Of a DNA stretch of 64,000 nt, positions 21,644 to 33,033 are shown in pieces (the first letter of the stretch is position 1; each line of letters opens with the position of its first letter). The notes below the pieces were generated by a model. It was not told the DNA's origin. It ran no database searches and saw only the letters and a program-made list of their open reading frames with translations. Source of the DNA: a virus. Where the stretch lies: IMG/VR virus record IMGVR_UViG_3300029908_000004, positions 107,458-171,457 of that record. One strand, 5' to 3'. A program made the position numbers and the translations under genes.

Positions 21644-22963
21644 ATGTCCAAGAACGTTATGGTGCAAGTAACTGACGAAGAACGGGCACAGTTCCGTCGT
21701 TTTGACACCATTTTCCGCGCTAACGGGTTCGACCCGGAAGAAAAGCGCCACATTACAATTAAGGATGCTATGGACATCCAAAATGCGGCGTTCATGATTC
21801 CAAGGGTAATGACCCAGATTGTCCAGGAGGGCATTGAGCCTCTTCTGATTGGTACCAGCCTGCTGCAGAAGATCGATTATGTGCCCGGCATGCAGACTGT
21901 TTTCCCAGCTATTGAACCATTGCATGCTGAAGAAGTAGGCGATAACATGGGTCTACCTATCTTCAACATCAACGTTGGTGGTGCGGCAACTTATGGTACA
22001 ACCGTAAAGCGGCATGGTCTTATGTTGAAGATCGCAAAGCGCTACGTAGAAGAATCTACTTATCCGTGGATCAATATGTGGCTGCGTCTTGCTGGTAACG
22101 CGTTGGCACGTCACAAGGAAGAGTATATCTTCTCCTTTATTACACAACTTGGTCAAGTTGTATTTGATAATAGCGTTTCTTCACGTTTACCTTCTTCTCC
22201 AGTTCAACCTATCAAAGGACCTACAACCGGACGTAATTACAAAGGTCAGTTCAATGGCTCCATGGTTGTTGATGACATCTTTGATATGTACGCTCAACAG
22301 CTATTAAATGGTTTTATCCCTGACACTATGCTTGTACATCCAATGGCATGGTTGATGTGGGTAAAGGATCCTGTGATGCGTGAATTTGCTATCCAAGCTG
22401 GTGGTGGTTCGTTCTTCGCCAACTGGACAGGCAATGTAGCATCACAATCTAATATGTTCTACAACTTCGGAGGCATGGGGTATAGCACAGGTCAGACTGG
22501 GCAGTATACTCAAGGTCAACTAACTGGTGGACAGCTTTCTACTCCAGAGGGTGTCCCTTCACACATGAACTCCGCACCAGTCCTACCTAGTTATCTAGGA
22601 CTGCCATTTAAGATTCTTGTTTCGCCATTTATGCGCTTTGACCCGCTTACACGTGAAACCGACATCTTGATGTTCAACTCGAAGAACCTTGGAGCTCTGA
22701 TTGTAGATGAAGAGCCACATGTTCGTTCCTTCGAAGATAACCGTTATGGAATACAGGAATTAGGAATCGAAGAGACTTACGGTTTCGGTATCCTGAATGA
22801 AGGCTTAGCAATCGGCGTAGCAAAGAATGTTAAGATTCGTCCAAACGAGTTCGTCATGCCGGCTCGCAGTGTATTCAACCTGTCAGATCCAAACTCTGGA
22901 TTCCAGGATATCAACACAACAGCTTTGTTCGGCAATGTGCCGATCGATGTCAACTCACAGTAA
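21644..22963 (+). CDS. Major capsid protein, 439 aa
   Basis: Builds the icosahedral shell, most likely with the HK97 fold. Support comes from its place after the protease and from its length. An N-terminal helical arm is followed by AAFMIPRVMTQIVQEGIEPL, a region typical of phage capsid proteins just after the arm. Later come VTD-like beta domain sequence and a Gly/Gln-rich insertion (YSTGQTGQYTQGQLTGG) at about 280-300. The end reads FGNVPIDVNSQ. AGGAGG precedes the start, and a strong terminator follows the stop. Confidence 0.88.
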   Translation: MSKNVMVQVTDEERAQFRRFDTIFRANGFDPEEKRHITIKDAMDIQNAAFMIPRVMTQIVQEGIEPLLIGTSLLQKIDYVPGMQTVFPAIEPLHAEEVGDNMGLPIFNINVGGAATYGTTVKRHGLMLKIAKRYVEESTYPWINMWLRLAGNALARHKEEYIFSFITQLGQVVFDNSVSSRLPSSPVQPIKGPTTGRNYKGQFNGSMVVDDIFDMYAQQLLNGFIPDTMLVHPMAWLMWVKDPVMREFAIQAGGGSFFANWTGNVASQSNMFYNFGGMGYSTGQTGQYTQGQLTGGQLSTPEGVPSHMNSAPVLPSYLGLPFKILVSPFMRFDPLTRETDILMFNSKNLGALIVDEEPHVRSFEDNRYGIQELGIEETYGFGILNEGLAIGVAKNVKIRPNEFVMPARSVFNLSDPNSGFQDINTTALFGNVPIDVNSQ

Positions 22964-23575: not shown

Positions 23576-24330
23576 TGTCTACAGCTCCAACATTATTATC
23601 TGTGTCACCACTAGATAACGCAACAGACGTTATATTAGGTTGTAATATAGTATTGACTTTTAGTCAGCCTATAAATCAACTAACTGTAACTGCTGATACC
23701 TTCCTACTACAGGGCCCCGGTCAGACAACTATGATTGGTCCTGAACAGTTGGAATCTATCAATCCGTTATCTGTAGTTGGTAGAGAATATATATTAGGTA
23801 GTTTTAATTGGGACCCAACGTCGACAATACTTACGTTTGTTCCAGATAAGCCTTTACAGCCTAATATGCTCTATAATATAATGATAGTTGGAACTGGCGG
23901 CGGATTAAGTAAGAGTTATGTATCAGGGACGAGTGGGTTATCCTTAGATAACACATATAAATGGAGCTTTACTACAGGGAACGTCAATGTAAAGAGCCCT
24001 CCTATACAGTGTCCTTTACCTCCATTTAGGAATCCAATTTATCCAGGAGATATAAAAATAGACATTGCCCCACGATTAAAGCCTGTTGGTAATGATTTAT
24101 CCCAAGAAATAAATATTATATTTCCAGCTCCGATTGATCTTTCTACATTCAGTCCAGCTGATTTACAAGCCAGTATAGATCCAATATTGAATGATATTTA
24201 TGTAAGAGTCCCATCAACCTTAGTATTTACCGTAGCTTTAAGCTTGGATGCCACAACTATAAATATAAATATAACAGGATGGCCACCAGATTGGGAACAA
24301 AACTGGAACTGGGGAGGTTATGGTGGATAG
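23575..24330 (+). CDS. Ig-like (Big_5 type) domain protein, 251 aa
   Basis: The N-terminal domain (about 5-140) reads like a bacterial Ig-like domain of the SbsA/Big_5 kind: PTLLSVSPLDNATDV, then IVLTFSQPINQLTV, with a closing NTYKWSFTTG strand. A second beta-rich part follows after a Pro-rich linker and repeats the pattern (INIIFPAPIDLSTF). Such domains in virions bind surfaces or decorate other proteins. It begins in the stop of the previous gene and its end overlaps the lysin gene. Confidence 0.65.
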   Translation: MSTAPTLLSVSPLDNATDVILGCNIVLTFSQPINQLTVTADTFLLQGPGQTTMIGPEQLESINPLSVVGREYILGSFNWDPTSTILTFVPDKPLQPNMLYNIMIVGTGGGLSKSYVSGTSGLSLDNTYKWSFTTGNVNVKSPPIQCPLPPFRNPIYPGDIKIDIAPRLKPVGNDLSQEINIIFPAPIDLSTFSPADLQASIDPILNDIYVRVPSTLVFTVALSLDATTININITGWPPDWEQNWNWGGYGG

Positions 24331-24832
24331 TAATTCAGAAGCTAGATTAAGTAAGGTATACCCAATTCTAGCATCTAAAATAAGGATTCTAGCTGAGAAG
24401 CTATTAGAAGAAGGTATTGAAATTAGGGTGGTACAAGGGCTTCGAACATACCAAGAACAAGGCGACCTTTACGCTAAAGGAAGAACTGCTCCAGGACCTA
24501 AGGTAACTGATGCCCCACCAGGGTATTCATGGCATAATATGGGAGTTGCTGTAGACGTCTGCCCGGGTATCTCTGGTGAAGACCCATGGGCACCAGATTG
24601 GAATGCAGCCCACCCTGCTTGGAAACAAATATGGACTATTGGAACTGGCTTAGGATTAGTTTCTGGGGCTCTTTGGAAGGGTATCCCAGATAAACCCCAT
24701 TTCCAGTTAGCAAATATAGGTCCAGTAGACGCTCCAGATGATGAATTACGAAAAATCATAGCAACAGGTGGGGTTCAAGCGGTCTGGAAAGAGATAGAAA
24801 GACGAATAAATGAAAGTAATCTACATACTTAA
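24320..24832 (+). CDS. M15-family peptidoglycan peptidase (endolysin), 170 aa
   Basis: Predicted zinc D,D- or L,D-peptidase that cuts peptidoglycan cross-links or stem peptides. The ordered motifs are present: VVQGLRTYQEQGDLYAKGRT, then SWHNMGVAVDV (H72, D79) and DKPHFQLA (H127). GGGGAGG is so close to the ATG at 24320 that GTG at 24323 may be the true start. The last 40 residues (from FQ at 24701) have a diverged duplicate at 25488-25607, and a GIY-YIG gene lies between the two. The present C-terminus may therefore be a replacement. A putative holin, lipoprotein and papain-like gene follow. Confidence 0.85.
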   Translation: MVDSNSEARLSKVYPILASKIRILAEKLLEEGIEIRVVQGLRTYQEQGDLYAKGRTAPGPKVTDAPPGYSWHNMGVAVDVCPGISGEDPWAPDWNAAHPAWKQIWTIGTGLGLVSGALWKGIPDKPHFQLANIGPVDAPDDELRKIIATGGVQAVWKEIERRINESNLHT

Positions 24833-25528
24833 AGATCCAATTGATAACAATGTGCGGTATGTCGGCGTAACTACTAATCCACGTAAACGATTAATAGTGC
24901 ACATAAGTCAAGCTAAGCGTGGTAGAAGTAATCGTAAGAATTACAGGTCTACCCATCGTGATAATTGGATTAATAAATTATTATCAAGGAATCTAAAACC
25001 AGAGATGGAGATTATAGAAGAGGTTAGCGATAATTGGGCTGATAGAGAACGATGGTGGATATCTCACTACAAGAAGTTGAATGCCCTCTTACGAATCATA
25101 CTGAAGGTGGAGAAGGAACGTTTGGACATAAACAGTCGCTTGAAACCCGTAAGAAGCATAGTGATTCTATGAAAGCTTATTTCTCAAACGTGTCTAATAG
25201 ACAAAAGACAAGAAATGCGTTATTAGGACACATAGTAAGTGCAGAAACAAGAGGTAAACAAGCTGCTGCGATGCGAGGTAGAAAGTGTCCACAGCACGTT
25301 AAAGAGATAGCTTCACAAACATTGAATAAACTTATAAATAGTCTTCCGAATAGATTCTGTAAACAATGTAATAATGAATTCAAGCCAATTCAGTTTAATA
25401 GTTGTTTTTGTTGTAAAGATTGTGCCAAAATTAGTTTTTCTATTTATCACAAGGAATATAAGAAAACTTACAAACAAAAGAAACTATTTCCAGATAACGG
25501 GAAGATTTCCAGAGGATGCGCCAGATAA
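24810..25528 (+). pseudogene. GIY-YIG homing endonuclease, split by a frameshift
   Basis: The first frame (24810-25172) starts MKVIYILKDP and has VRYVGVTTNPRKRL, the GIY-YIG nuclease core, ending in ERWWISHYKK. The homologous continuation (ECPLTNHTEGGEGTFGHKQS) is in another frame and runs to 25528. It includes NUMOD3-like repeats (SLETRKKHSDSMK, SAETRGKQAAAMRG) and a four-Cys finger (CKQCNNEF, CCKDC). A single missing base near 25080 explains the break, so the gene is probably dead unless the base is a sequence error. It overlaps the lysin end by 23 nt. Confidence 0.8.
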
Positions 25529-25607
25529 CGAGGTTAGACAGATTATAAAAGTTTCTGGGATGCAAACGTTGTGGGATGATATTACCAAATCGTGTAATAC
25601 AGGATAA
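25488..25607 (+). pseudogene. Detached, diverged C-terminal segment of the lysin gene
   Basis: Reads FQITGRFPEDAPDNEVRQII and onward to a stop at 25605-25607. It aligns without gaps to the last part of the intact lysin (FQLANIGPVDAPDDELRKII), with about half the residues identical and the same ending pattern (QxxWxxI). It has no start of its own. It looks like the original 3' end of the lysin, cut off when the endonuclease entered at the FQ position. Confidence 0.75.
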
Positions 25608-26755: not shown

Positions 26756-26768
26756 AAAGGAAATGTCA

Positions 26769-27641
26769 ATGAGCTTTCTAAAACTGTCACCCGCCGGTCG
26801 TCGTTACGGGCGTTATCCTGATAACCCGTTTTCCCCAGCTAAAACACTACTTAAAATAACAGCTCCATCTAATTTAGTATTACCACCAACTGCTACTACT
26901 TCTCAATGGATGGGCCCAATTCGTGATCAAGCACAAGAGGGTTCCTGCACGGGGCAATTGAAAGCTGAATACCGTGATTGGATGTACCGTAAGTTGTATA
27001 TGTTTGAGAAAGATAAAACAATAGCTACAGCGGACTTTATGTCTTCAGCAGCTTTTGCTTATCAGACAAACCTTGCGGCTGATGGTGATATTGGACAGGA
27101 TGCGGGATCAACAATCCACACAACGTTTAAAACTTTAAATAAGTTTGGTGTATGTCTAGCTCCACAAGAACCATATCTTGGAACAGATTATATGTCTGCC
27201 CCTACTCAACAAGAATATGCTGAAGCTCTTATCTATAAAGGAGGACCATATCATTCATTACCAACATTAACAGATGTTAAATTCTCAATTTCTTCTGGCT
27301 ATGCCGTTGGTATAGGAATTAATGTGTATTCTTCTTTTGAAGAAACCCAAATACAGACTACTGGGTTTATGCCAATGCCGGCACCTGGCGAGAGTTTATT
27401 AGGTGGTCATGCACAACTAGTTTTAGACTATAATGACACAATTGCTTTCCCAGATGAAACCACTGGTGGTGTATTTATCCAGAATTCATGGGGCAGTTCA
27501 TGGGGTATTTCAGCACAAGGCCGCACTGACGGCGGTTGTTATTGGATGCCTTATGCTTTCTTTAATTATCAAGACCCAAGTGGTAATGGATCGGGAGTCT
27601 CTGATATGTGGATGATGCATGAGGGCTCAATTTGGCAGTAA
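26769..27641 (+). CDS. Papain-like cysteine peptidase, 290 aa
   Basis: Predicted C1A-type protease. From the start at 26769 the active-site Cys is in AQEGSCTGQLKA (C60), with Gln54 or Gln56 as oxyanion residue. The His is in LLGGHAQLVLDYND (H214) and the Asn in VFIQNSWGSSWG (N239). An earlier ATG at 26763 is too close to AAAGG. There is no signal peptide, and the N-terminal 40 residues are Pro-rich, unlike a classical inhibitory propeptide. It lies after the lipoprotein and before adhesin-like genes, so it could act in the virion, on host proteins or on a prey surface layer. Confidence 0.85.
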   Translation: MSFLKLSPAGRRYGRYPDNPFSPAKTLLKITAPSNLVLPPTATTSQWMGPIRDQAQEGSCTGQLKAEYRDWMYRKLYMFEKDKTIATADFMSSAAFAYQTNLAADGDIGQDAGSTIHTTFKTLNKFGVCLAPQEPYLGTDYMSAPTQQEYAEALIYKGGPYHSLPTLTDVKFSISSGYAVGIGINVYSSFEETQIQTTGFMPMPAPGESLLGGHAQLVLDYNDTIAFPDETTGGVFIQNSWGSSWGISAQGRTDGGCYWMPYAFFNYQDPSGNGSGVSDMWMMHEGSIWQ

Positions 27642-27694: not shown

Positions 27695-28342
27695 ATGTAT
27701 TATCCTGGCGATTCTTACACATTCACTCTATTTATAACAACTTCTACCGGTGTAACTCCAAGCGTAACGGCCAATCCAATGATACAGATAATAAATGCTG
27801 CTACTGGTACCTCTGTGCTAGGAACCGCTGGTGCAATGACTTTAATACCTAGTACCACCTGTGTATATAAGTATACGTGGGTTATATCTTCCTCTGCGAC
27901 AGCAGGGGAATATGTAGCTGTAGCCTCTTATGCAGCTAATGGAAATACGTTCTCAGGTTATCCATTTGAGACTGTTTCCATAGGGGATTCCCGGATTACT
28001 GGAATAGTGGCATTAAATAATACAGTAGCTTTAAACGCTACTGTTGCTAAAGATGCTACTGTTGCCCACTTTAGTGATTTGGCTAATATAAACCCAACTT
28101 CCAATCCAACGGTAATGGCTATAAAGGCTAAAACAGATCTAATACCAGCGATTCCTGCTGCACAATCTGACGTATTATCAGTACAGACAGTAGTAGATTA
28201 CATCGAATCTATAGTGGCTGCTGATATGTCTATTGATAAAACTACTAATCCAGTAGTTATGACATTAACTTATGAAGGTAACACTATAGCTATCTATAAC
28301 ATAGTTGATGACTCAACTACTTCTGGAAGAATACAAACCTAA
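27695..28342 (+). CDS. Adhesin or tail-fibre-associated protein, 215 aa
   Basis: ATG at 27695 with GAGG upstream. The first 95 residues form a beta domain (MYYPGDSYTFTLFITTSTG, then CVYKYTWVISSSATAGEYVA), of a type frequent beside phage fibres. The second half has short repeats (ALNNTVALNATVAKDATVAH) and then IKAKTDLIPAIPAA, a segment often found in phage fibre-type proteins. It runs into the giant Fn3 gene by a TAATG overlap, so the two are co-expressed. Confidence 0.65.
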   Translation: MYYPGDSYTFTLFITTSTGVTPSVTANPMIQIINAATGTSVLGTAGAMTLIPSTTCVYKYTWVISSSATAGEYVAVASYAANGNTFSGYPFETVSIGDSRITGIVALNNTVALNATVAKDATVAHFSDLANINPTSNPTVMAIKAKTDLIPAIPAAQSDVLSVQTVVDYIESIVAADMSIDKTTNPVVMTLTYEGNTIAIYNIVDDSTTSGRIQT

Positions 28343-31300
28343 TGACCCGGTTGATTGACCCTTCACAATATTTCACTAGATACCAATCAGATGCACGTTA
28401 CTTGGGCAGGTCACAACCTGCCCCACCACCTATTGGGCTATCTATGATATCCACAGCCCTATCTGCTACTCCTGGCTATTCCTCTGTAGTGATTGAGTTG
28501 ATTGATCCCTCTATTCCGTTTTGGGCGGATACAGGTGGTCCTTATGTGTATTATTATATGTTTGATTGTACACCTACGATAGCCGGTGTGGCACAAGCAA
28601 CAAATACAATAACTTTACCATATTCTTCTTCTTGTATTTACACCTTACCTGCGTTAATATCTGGTGCAAATTACTCTATATCTGCTAGAACTGTAGATTA
28701 TACCGGACAGCCAGGAACAGAGAGTACAGCAGTAGAAATAACAACAACAACAAATACTTCTACTCCTACAGCTATAACTATTACTGCTGCCCCATGTATT
28801 GGTGGTGCGCAGATAGTTCTTAGTGCTCTCAATACTGATCCAGATTTTAGTCAATATGAACTCTATAGAGGAAATGGTTATGTAAGCTCTCCAGTATCTT
28901 GGGGAGTCGCTCCCATTATTGTAGCTACATTTACTAACGTTATGATACCTAATGGGGTGTTTATCGACCATTCGATACCTGCTACTTCTACTGATTATTA
29001 TTACTATATAGTTGAAGTAAATCTGAGTGGCAACACCACAGTCACGCCAATTGTAGGACCATTAAGCCTAGTTGGTACTAGTGTAGCTCCTCCACCTACA
29101 CCAAGTTTGGTAACAGCTTCTGGAACAGTAAATTCAGACGGTTCAATAATTATCTCCTTTCAATCGTTAACATTAACAACAGCCCCAACAGTTACATCCT
29201 ATAATATCTATCGTAGAATTACTGGAACTGCTCAGTGGCTATCATTAGTTAATTTACCAACAACGATGGAAGTAAACTCTACTACTATCACTTATATAGA
29301 TACCTACACTATTATAGGAATGAACTATACTTATGGGGTAACCTCTGTAGACTCATACGGCGATGAAAGTAGTATGGACACAGATCATTTAATTATGGTG
29401 ACCTCAACGGTTACAACAACCATAGCAGCTCCAAGCGATGTTGTATTAACTGGGGTACAAGGTGGGGTAAACGTATCTTGGCTTATTACAAGAGGAGCTG
29501 TTGGTTATGAGATATGCTATAGATTTGCGCAAGTTGGATCATCAGATTTAACTTCGTGGAGTGACCCAATAAATGTACAATCTAATTCCTATACAATTTT
29601 TGGTCTGGAATACCCAGAATCTCCAGTTGGCCCGCCAACAAGAGATGTATTAGCTAATAGTTTTGAGGTGAGCCTCCGTTCATATAATTCGATAATGGAT
29701 TATTCTCCGTACTCTTACTTAATAGCAACATATCCAGATTTAAATAATTACTTTCCGGCTGATACTTCGTTACCACCAGCTCCTATTAAAGTTACGCCAG
29801 TCATAAGTAACGCAGCTTCTATTACGCTTACTTGGACAGCTCCTGTTACTAATAGTTTAGCTGGATATCAGATAGAGCAACAATCTGTTTACGATGATAC
29901 ACCTAGCTCTTGGTCTATATTAGCACTTATAAACGACCCAACTGCTGGGACTAAGTCTTTTATTGCTAATGGTTTAGAGCCGTATGCTTTTACTAACACT
30001 TCTTATATATTTAGGGTGAGAAGTGTAGACACAAGTGGTAATTTGTCTTCACCAAATCTAGTGTTCAACCCTGGGTTTGAAGATGTACCAACCACCTCTC
30101 CTTTTGGTATCCCTTTCTGGTCTTATATTGGTGACGCTCCATCTATTATAACTACTGATACCAGAAATAATTCTCTTCGAGCAATGAAGCAAGATGGTAC
30201 TACACAGCTATCACAATCAATAGAGGTGATTGGCGGTTTAGTTTATACCGCCTCTTGCTTTGTTACTAGTGACCCAGCTATTAATGGGTCCCCTAATCCA
30301 AACACTTCTGTCCAAATGCAGATAACGTTTTCTAATACATTAGGGTTATCAGAAACTTATAATAGTAATAGGATCACAACGAATATAGGTTATCAAAGAT
30401 TAGTTGTTACCGCTACAGCTCCTATCGCAGCTACCATAGCTAAAGTTACTCTTCTTAATGACCCAACAAATACAGCACAAACAGCCATATGGGATGATGC
30501 ACAAGTTGAACAATGTCCTTTCGCTACTATTTATGCTGATGGTAAAACGGAACAAGTAAATGCTGTTGAGACTAGTGGACCACAACCTTATCTTGTAAAT
30601 GGGTTACCACTTGTGTTATCTATTGCTGGGTCTTTGGGGGCTATTAATTTATCATGGATTAACCCATCTAGAGATTTTAGTGGTTACTATGATTACATAA
30701 ACGGTGCGTTTGAGATATGGAGAATGGTAACTGTCTCTGAACAATCAAATATGCCAGTATCCACTAGTTATATAAAGATAGCAGAGGTACCCTCTTTTGT
30801 GTCTGCCAGCGGTATAACTAGCTACAATAGTTATTCTGATCTACAACCGGAAGAAAACAATAATATTACTGCTTCCTATGAATTACGTGGAATAGATAGA
30901 TTCGGTAATGAAGGAAATCAGGTTCTAGCCGGTCCTTTATCTGCTACATCACAGACTCCTAATGATATACAGATAGTGACAGACATCCACGTACCACCAC
31001 CGACTCCTATATTGGTTGGCAGTGGTTGTGGGGCGGTAGCAAATTCAGATGGTAGTATCTCTGTGTCTTGGAATGGGATCACCCCCTTAGATTGTGTAAC
31101 TCTAGGTGGTTATAACTTATGGAGGATGATAATCCCGTCTGGTACAACACCAACCCCATTATGGAATTCGTTATTAGCAACAATTTCTATAGGACCTTCT
31201 ACTGGTGGGGATATAGTAACATTTATAGATACTAGTACTAACCCAGGAGCGTTATATTGGTATAATGTTTCATCATTCGATAGGGTGGGAAATCAATCTC

Positions 31301-33033
31301 CCCCTAGCTCTACATATTTTACCTGTACCTCTGCTAATTATTCTCTTCCAGAACCGGTGCCATCAGGCAGTGTGATTGGGACAGGGACTATGGGGGCGAT
31401 AGTTTTAACATGGTCCCCTTCTCCAAGCAATATTAACCAATATAAAGTATATTGGTCGAACAATTATGGAACTTCTTTTACTTCATTTACAGTTTCTGGA
31501 ACTACAGCTACAGTCGTGTTAACTAGTGGAGACCCAGCAGCGTTATTAACAACTGATTTTTCTGCGCATATCACAGCTCTTTCTATCAGCCCTAATTCAT
31601 CTACTGGGTTATACGTAGAGTCTGCTCCAGTTAGTATGAATACGCCTCCTGATCTGACTGGATACATGCCACAGACGTCAGGTACCCCGGCTCCACCAGC
31701 TAGTATAACAGCCACACCACAGACGTCAACAGATATAACTCTATCTTGGCCTGCTTCTACTTCCACAGATATAAATTATTATATAATTGAAAGCCAATCA
31801 ACAAATAATAACACTATGGTATCTTCTCCTTGGTGTTATATAGGGACGGTACCAGCTCCTTCTACAGGATACAGGGTATCTGGGCTACAATCTAGTACGA
31901 TAAGCCAATTATTATGGACATTTAGAATTTGGTCAGTAAATAATACTAGTGTAGTGTCTGCTACTCCTGCGGTATCAAGTCCAGTACCTGTATTAATAGA
32001 TACTACCCCTCCTGCTATACCGGTAGGTCTAAGTGGGACATTCCTGAATAGTGGATCTACAGCTACTGCTACTATTTGTTGGACTCCAAATATAGAGCCG
32101 GATTTCGACCATTACCTATTACAGTACCAAGCTAGTAGTTTATCTGGTACACCAACATCTATAAATGTTCCTGGTATTACACCAACTACTACTATAACTG
32201 GATTACCACAATCTATTAGTTATAATTTTATGGTAGCCGCAGGGGATACTCTTGGTAACACTAGTGCTTTCTGTTCTCCTCTAGTTATAACTTCAACAAC
32301 CGGTAGTGGCACAGTACCAACTGCTCCAACGGTTTCTGAAACGTTTACCGCCCCTTATTCAGGTATTTTAACCATTACGTATACCCCTCCTTCTAATTTC
32401 ACGTGCTATTCGATTTATAGAGCAACGACTAGTTCGCAAGGATCTTTATTAGGCACCTGTACTACTAGTACATACACTGATTTCGTTATGTCGTATTCTA
32501 ATATAACTTATTACTACTGTGTTACAGCTACGAACAGTAGTGGTCTTTCAAGTGTGATTTCAAATATTGTATCTATAACTTATACCGGAACTGGAAGCAA
32601 CGGGGCTTGCCCGGCAGAAAATATGTGGGTTACTCAGGATAAGCAAGCAAAGCAAGTTGTAGCTGGGGATTTATTAGATATTCTGCTGAATAACGATGTA
32701 TCAAGCAAAGGGCTAGTGATTTCCAATTCTCATACTTACGCAGCTTGTGTAGAGCTGAAAGCGGATAATGGAGCCACTGTAATAGTTTCTAGGAATACGC
32801 CGATGGTATTAAAGGATAATACACAAAGGTATGCTTCAGAAATGCAGCTACAGCTAGTAGCAACTGATATAGGAAACGGGATTGAATGGTCACCAGTCAC
32901 TGTTTACGATGCTGGAATTCGTAGGGTTTGTCATATATACCTAGGAGGAAAGATTTTTGCTGCTGGATCCTCAAAAGATAAGAGGGTATACACACATAAC
33001 TCCCTTGCTTATGGACCGATTAGGACAAAATAA
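28342..33033 (+). CDS. Giant fibronectin-III adhesin with C-terminal Hint-like domain, 1563 aa
   Basis: Likely receptor-binding or tail-tip protein. Many Fn3-type repeats are visible, each with patterns such as ITLTWTAPVTNSLAGYQIEQ or INLSWINPSRDFSGYY and closing NxVSSFDRVGNQS-like strands. At about 570-720 a galactose-binding or CBM-like domain interrupts them (NPGFEDVPTTSPFG, WDDAQVEQCPF). The last 140 residues (from C1423) look like a Hint/intein-like domain: CPAENMWVTQDKQAKQVVAG, then VIVSRNTPMVL, then VCHIYLGGKIFAAG and THN (1551-1553). The start lies in the TAATG overlap. Confidence 0.75.
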   Translation: MTRLIDPSQYFTRYQSDARYLGRSQPAPPPIGLSMISTALSATPGYSSVVIELIDPSIPFWADTGGPYVYYYMFDCTPTIAGVAQATNTITLPYSSSCIYTLPALISGANYSISARTVDYTGQPGTESTAVEITTTTNTSTPTAITITAAPCIGGAQIVLSALNTDPDFSQYELYRGNGYVSSPVSWGVAPIIVATFTNVMIPNGVFIDHSIPATSTDYYYYIVEVNLSGNTTVTPIVGPLSLVGTSVAPPPTPSLVTASGTVNSDGSIIISFQSLTLTTAPTVTSYNIYRRITGTAQWLSLVNLPTTMEVNSTTITYIDTYTIIGMNYTYGVTSVDSYGDESSMDTDHLIMVTSTVTTTIAAPSDVVLTGVQGGVNVSWLITRGAVGYEICYRFAQVGSSDLTSWSDPINVQSNSYTIFGLEYPESPVGPPTRDVLANSFEVSLRSYNSIMDYSPYSYLIATYPDLNNYFPADTSLPPAPIKVTPVISNAASITLTWTAPVTNSLAGYQIEQQSVYDDTPSSWSILALINDPTAGTKSFIANGLEPYAFTNTSYIFRVRSVDTSGNLSSPNLVFNPGFEDVPTTSPFGIPFWSYIGDAPSIITTDTRNNSLRAMKQDGTTQLSQSIEVIGGLVYTASCFVTSDPAINGSPNPNTSVQMQITFSNTLGLSETYNSNRITTNIGYQRLVVTATAPIAATIAKVTLLNDPTNTAQTAIWDDAQVEQCPFATIYADGKTEQVNAVETSGPQPYLVNGLPLVLSIAGSLGAINLSWINPSRDFSGYYDYINGAFEIWRMVTVSEQSNMPVSTSYIKIAEVPSFVSASGITSYNSYSDLQPEENNNITASYELRGIDRFGNEGNQVLAGPLSATSQTPNDIQIVTDIHVPPPTPILVGSGCGAVANSDGSISVSWNGITPLDCVTLGGYNLWRMIIPSGTTPTPLWNSLLATISIGPSTGGDIVTFIDTSTNPGALYWYNVSSFDRVGNQSPPSSTYFTCTSANYSLPEPVPSGSVIGTGTMGAIVLTWSPSPSNINQYKVYWSNNYGTSFTSFTVSGTTATVVLTSGDPAALLTTDFSAHITALSISPNSSTGLYVESAPVSMNTPPDLTGYMPQTSGTPAPPASITATPQTSTDITLSWPASTSTDINYYIIESQSTNNNTMVSSPWCYIGTVPAPSTGYRVSGLQSSTISQLLWTFRIWSVNNTSVVSATPAVSSPVPVLIDTTPPAIPVGLSGTFLNSGSTATATICWTPNIEPDFDHYLLQYQASSLSGTPTSINVPGITPTTTITGLPQSISYNFMVAAGDTLGNTSAFCSPLVITSTTGSGTVPTAPTVSETFTAPYSGILTITYTPPSNFTCYSIYRATTSSQGSLLGTCTTSTYTDFVMSYSNITYYYCVTATNSSGLSSVISNIVSITYTGTGSNGACPAENMWVTQDKQAKQVVAGDLLDILLNNDVSSKGLVISNSHTYAACVELKADNGATVIVSRNTPMVLKDNTQRYASEMQLQLVATDIGNGIEWSPVTVYDAGIRRVCHIYLGGKIFAAGSSKDKRVYTHNSLAYGPIRTK

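Follow-up and report, generated by a model that had tools for sequence, protein, structure and literature searches.

A phage locus in which the 3' end of a lysin gene occurs twice, once on each side of a homing endonuclease gene, raises the question of which end belongs to the lysin and how the other came to lie there. The locus is part of a 64,000-nucleotide stretch of DNA (the window), which is contained in a 215,291-bp virus record from a large soil or wetland phage. In the 5' to 3' direction, an intact M15 lysin is followed by a GIY-YIG endonuclease gene and by a second, startless lysin 3' end. The initial annotation had described these same parts, with the last one as a gapless, diverged and startless homologue in another frame, and open reading frames, Pfam matches and alignment located all of them at this place. 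Two other assemblies of the same strain (L001 and L002) showed 100% identity along 8.5 and 7.4 kb, respectively, and the evidence for the locus comes from this one phage strain. The features are listed below.

24320-24832, + strand: intact M15/VanY-type lysin, made up of its N-terminal part and the upstream C-terminus (matches to Pfam VanY/Peptidase_M15_4 and to PHROG endolysin families)
24699-24706, + strand: first copy of the common octamer ATTTCCAG, end of the catalytic His codon plus Phe-Gln (identical to 25486-25493)
24701-24829, + strand: upstream C-terminus (FQLANIGPVDAPDDELRKII...), in the lysin frame (alignment; congruence with the lysin N-terminal part)
24810-25172, + strand: N-terminal (catalytic) ORF of the GIY-YIG endonuclease (Pfam; it starts within the lysin 3' end, with an overlap of 23 bp)
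25052-25528, + strand: continuation of the endonuclease in a shifted frame, DNA-binding half (the phrog_314 alignment continues over 263-388; alignment in this frame begins near 25080)
25486-25493, + strand: second ATTTCCAG, the right junction between endonuclease DNA and lysin fragment (alignment)
25488-25607, + strand: stranded 3' end of another M15 lysin, without a start codon (FQITGRFPEDAPDNEVRQII...) (tblastn and alignment; closest uninterrupted C-terminus in L291)

The lysin ORF encodes 170 amino acids, ends in its own stop codon and matched Pfam VanY (7e-10) and Peptidase_M15_4 (5.6e-8) above the family cut-off. Its best solved relative was the L-alanyl-D-glutamate peptidase 2vo9, and the product is a putative L,D- or D,D-peptidase. 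Residues S70, H72, D79, P126 and H127 were invariant among the aligned lysins, and the last 43 residues begin at 24701 with FQLANIGPVDAPDDELRKII. An AlphaFold model based on a 10-member alignment reached a mean pLDDT of 84.6, and the C-terminal helix (residues 141-168), which is built from the upstream C-terminus, was confidently folded. It is plausible from this model that the lysin in its present form is a complete enzyme, in agreement with the earlier view that it had been kept intact, and it is presumably the working one of the two. The catalytic domain and the PHF motif are shared with M15 endolysins of the Listeria phage Ply500 type (2vo9), whereas the lysin of the window carries a short C-terminal helix without a cell-wall-binding domain and its locus holds two versions of that helix. 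A papain-like (C1) peptidase is also encoded at 26763-27641, near the lysin and holin genes, with a weak Pfam match below the cut-off and a PHROG peptidase match at 2e-9.

The two C-termini align without gaps, with 16 of 39 positions identical and a BLOSUM62 score of 88. Among 100,000 shuffles the mean score was -38 (sd 13) and the maximum 30, the runner-up among ungapped matches in any of the six reading frames of the window scored 21, and tblastn across the whole record matched only these two places. There is no doubt that the two C-termini are homologous. The downstream copy begins at 25488, lacks a start codon, ends with TAA at 25605-25607, and lies in a frame that differs from both the lysin frame and the endonuclease continuation frame. 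The junction had been placed at the Phe-Gln codons, and indeed ATTTCCAG is present at both copies, comprising the last two bases of a His codon (CAT upstream, TAT downstream) and the Phe-Gln codons. All aligned lysins have this His, which is a zinc ligand in the M15 family. Codon usage and GC content showed no significant difference among the lysin N-terminal part, the upstream copy and the downstream copy, and neither copy was marked as foreign.

Between the two copies lies the endonuclease region, which extends over about 680 bp from 24810 to approximately 25487. Its Pfam GIY-YIG match (5.4e-8) scored 33.5 bits against a curated cut-off of 22.6. The ATG at 24810 precedes the lysin stop codon at 24830-24832, so that the two genes overlap by 23 bp in different frames. 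An overlap of this kind is typical of free-standing phage endonuclease genes; those reported in phage T4 measure 20 bp for segC, 11 bp for segF and 23 bp for mobA (PMC2988022). A frameshift near 25080 puts the DNA-binding half out of frame with the catalytic half, and 35 of 78 endonuclease relatives aligned in two frames with the switch at about this position. The frameshift is identical in L001 and L002, and an assembly slip is therefore unlikely. The continuation frame has no stop codon at the right junction, and it enters the lysin fragment and ends at 25528; no intact full-length reading frame of the endonuclease is present. Judged by its sequence, the GIY-YIG gene is of the free-standing homing-endonuclease type and is now decayed by frameshift.

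To assign the two C-termini, lysin relatives were gathered in two scans by alignment and one with a degenerate pattern. A total of 26 uninterrupted lysins had an alignable C-terminus, and the 25 non-redundant ones were used for trees. Each piece of the window lysin was tried on every branch of the reference tree of the relatives. For controls, the 25 relatives were omitted one at a time, and the N- and C-terminal parts of the omitted lysin were placed on a tree rebuilt without it. The initial annotation had proposed that only the C-terminal piece was replaced and that the downstream copy represents the former 3' end of the same lysin, with the C-termini of uninterrupted relatives to decide. 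The raw scores by themselves would favour that proposal, since most relatives were nearer to the downstream copy (e.g. L291, L290, L066, L287 and L224), but L058 and L059, the two closest relatives of the N-terminal part, have C-termini that scored nearer to the upstream copy. The outcome that the initial annotation had named as a refutation, uninterrupted relatives closer to the upstream copy, was thus observed in part.

The placements leaned against both parts of that proposal. The N-terminal part was placed with L058/L059, the upstream C-terminus was poorly resolved in a way compatible with that position, and the downstream copy was placed at L291 with a weight of 0.83. The control deficit of the 25 relatives averaged -4.1 lnL (range 0 to -13.3). 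When the N-terminal part was combined with the upstream C-terminus, the mean lnL deficit over the 25 trees was -2.6 (-1.3 to -6.7), and 16 of the 25 controls were equal or worse; with the downstream C-terminus it was -10.9 (-7.4 to -14.6), a value as discordant in only 2 of 25 controls. The upstream C-terminus fitted the N-terminal part better in all 25 trees. The picture was similar when the control trees were pruned instead of rebuilt, none of the 25 controls being as discordant as the downstream copy. No switch of affinity was detected along the lysin N-terminal part, whose similarity to the L058/L059 group was uniform, and a linear correlation of N- and C-terminal similarity among the relatives gave no signal. 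The C-terminal data for placement comprise only about 35 residues, and since the sequences are short the result is a lean and not a proof: the upstream C-terminus appears to be the natural partner of the N-terminal part, and the downstream piece seems to be left over from another lysin, one of the L290/L291 sublineage.

The lysin slot was also compared among related phages. Phages that have the capsid gene and the gene preceding the lysin in common with the window carried other lysins at this slot. Among 49 loci found via the capsid protein, no empty-site or donor allele was detected, and those capsid-gene relatives that reach the slot have other lysin types, except L004-L006, which belong to the same strain. 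Two lysin places were present in none of 145 relative loci. No close relative of the lysin was found in the genome collection, and a DNA-level search of phage records returned no match. After the Ig-like (Big_5) gene in L007-L050, most loci have an M15_3-like lysin as against the M15_4 type of the window; another hydrolase occupies the slot in L023, L025, L028 and L030, and L012 has no recognisable lysin directly downstream.

We consider the locus to be a scar of homing-type recombination between two M15 lysin lineages, with a probability of about 0.5. The upstream lysin, to judge from its congruent parts, probably arrived whole and together with the endonuclease. A free-standing GIY-YIG gene would have travelled directly behind a complete lysin, overlapping its stop codon, and this unit would have been joined at a break, or at the short match ATTTCCAG, in a resident L290/L291-like lysin, with the joint placed at the conserved catalytic His-Phe-Gln codons of the resident gene. 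Repair of a double-strand break could have copied the donor on one side and proceeded by short-match joining on the other, whereby the 5' part of the resident lysin would have been replaced and its last 39 codons stranded downstream; the endonuclease may have decayed later through the frameshift. The arrangement of the parts, the homology, the common octamer, the frameshift and the congruence of the N-terminal part with the upstream but not the downstream C-terminus follow from the data, whereas cutting by the endonuclease at or near the site, its causal role, the order of events and the one-sided resolution of the break are what we infer. Points in favour of such a scar are the certain homology of the C-termini, the congruence of the N-terminal part with the upstream and not the downstream copy, the lack of an internal switch, the closeness of the downstream copy to the L291 C-terminus, the 23-bp overlap, the swapping at the slot, the 0 of 145 loci with double lysins and the position of the frameshift. 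Points against it are the lack of an empty-site or donor allele among the relatives examined, the shortness of the C-terminal data, the raw scores of many relatives, which favour the downstream copy, the uninformative codon usage and the two of 25 controls that were equally discordant, so that the downstream copy may still be the native partner.

The replacement of the C-terminus only, in which an element entered the Phe-Gln codons of this same lysin, supplied a new C-terminus and left the original 3' end as the downstream copy, is possible but rather doubtful. It agrees with the order of parts in the atp6, atp9, cox2 and nad3 hybrids of fungi (PMC3630166), with the position of the junction at a conserved catalytic codon, and with the greater similarity of most uninterrupted relatives to the downstream copy. 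However, the N-terminal part does not group with lysins that bear the downstream type of C-terminus, its two nearest relatives score higher with the upstream one, and no empty site was present among the capsid-gene relatives examined. That the downstream copy belongs to another lysin lineage could also be accounted for if the endonuclease gene had been inserted between or into two adjacent lysins and the second was truncated. This is improbable because none of the 145 relative loci has two lysins, and a deletion would have had to stop precisely at the Phe-Gln codons next to the endonuclease.

An ordinary exchange of lysin modules through short homology, with an endonuclease that never cut here, likewise receives little of our belief. 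Exchange at the lysin slot is evident among these phages, the endonuclease is now broken and the match at the junction is only 8 bp, but a joint inside a catalytic codon, right where an endonuclease gene ends, is expected from homing and would otherwise be a coincidence. An endonuclease gene between two coding pieces might suggest the exon-like flanks of a group I or II intron or of an intein, but this reading is very improbable. An Rfam scan yielded no group I or II intron model at E values up to 5, its sole match being a chance one to bantam, and the upstream piece is in itself a homologous C-terminus, complete and closed by a stop codon. An intein is ruled out because the lysin frame closes with a stop codon of its own and the endonuclease starts separately in a different frame; in this respect the earlier statement that neither an intron nor an intein is involved was upheld.

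Similar arrangements are known from the mORF hybrids of fungal mitochondria, namely atp6 of Allomyces macrogynus and atp6, atp9, cox2 and nad3 of Glomus sp. (PMC3630166). In these, a gene with one C-terminus is followed by an endonuclease ORF (GIY-YIG in Glomus atp9) and by a diverged second C-terminus without a gene (PMC3630166), so that two diverged copies of the 3' end flank the endonuclease and the upstream copy is in frame with the host gene, as in the window. The present case differs in that it lies in a phage genome and its endonuclease is in another frame and frameshifted. Moreover, the downstream copy in fungi was shown to be native by near-identical relatives (PMC3630166), whereas phylogeny here favours the upstream copy as the partner of the N-terminal part. 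It is rather less likely than not that the locus is a phage counterpart of the fungal mORFs, in which a mobile endonuclease gene would enter an important gene at its catalytic codons and supply a replacement C-terminus without an intron or intein.

The free-standing endonucleases of the T4 type (seg, GIY-YIG; mobA and mobE, HNH) also adjoin an important gene and overlap the upstream stop codon by about 20 bp, but the T4 and Aeh1 cases are intergenic or have a gene split into working halves (nrdA, gene 60), and a duplicated and diverged 3' end is not described in the portion of the source consulted (PMC2988022). No phage example of a lysin, an endonuclease and a stranded tail in this layout was found in the literature searched, which lay mostly outside subscription journals. 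If the endonuclease drove the event, phage homing is capable of exchanging whole or partial lysin genes across sublineages and of leaving remnants behind, which would offer a concrete route for rapid lysin swapping in this group. If a swap of the C-terminus were proven, it would be a phage case of the fungal mitochondrial strategy (PMC3630166) and a third mode of entry into an important gene besides introns and inteins.

About 80 loci with related endonucleases were scanned for duplicated flanks, and only the same strain and L351 rose above background, the latter with a flank score of 79 against a cross-locus background maximum of 63. At L351:1923-3419, a related GIY-YIG gene is flanked by an ORF and a downstream piece, both of which contain ITxxLIGSATKRIxGALxSN; the shuffle-based p value of this similarity is about 1e-5 before correction for the about 80 loci. 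The downstream piece may be a complete gene for a small membrane protein, or a paralogue, and L351 is a lead and not a second case.

Two further observations were made in the window. The ORF at 28342-33033 encodes a long protein of fibronectin-like repeats; by eye, its final ~140 residues (CPAENMW... VYTHNSL...) resemble a domain of the Hint/intein type, and its last 177 residues had no Pfam match. The gene at 21644-22963, which was matched by annotated major capsid proteins, departs in codon usage from the window average (z about -6) and has a GC3 of 0.45, compared with roughly 0.27 in most neighbouring genes.
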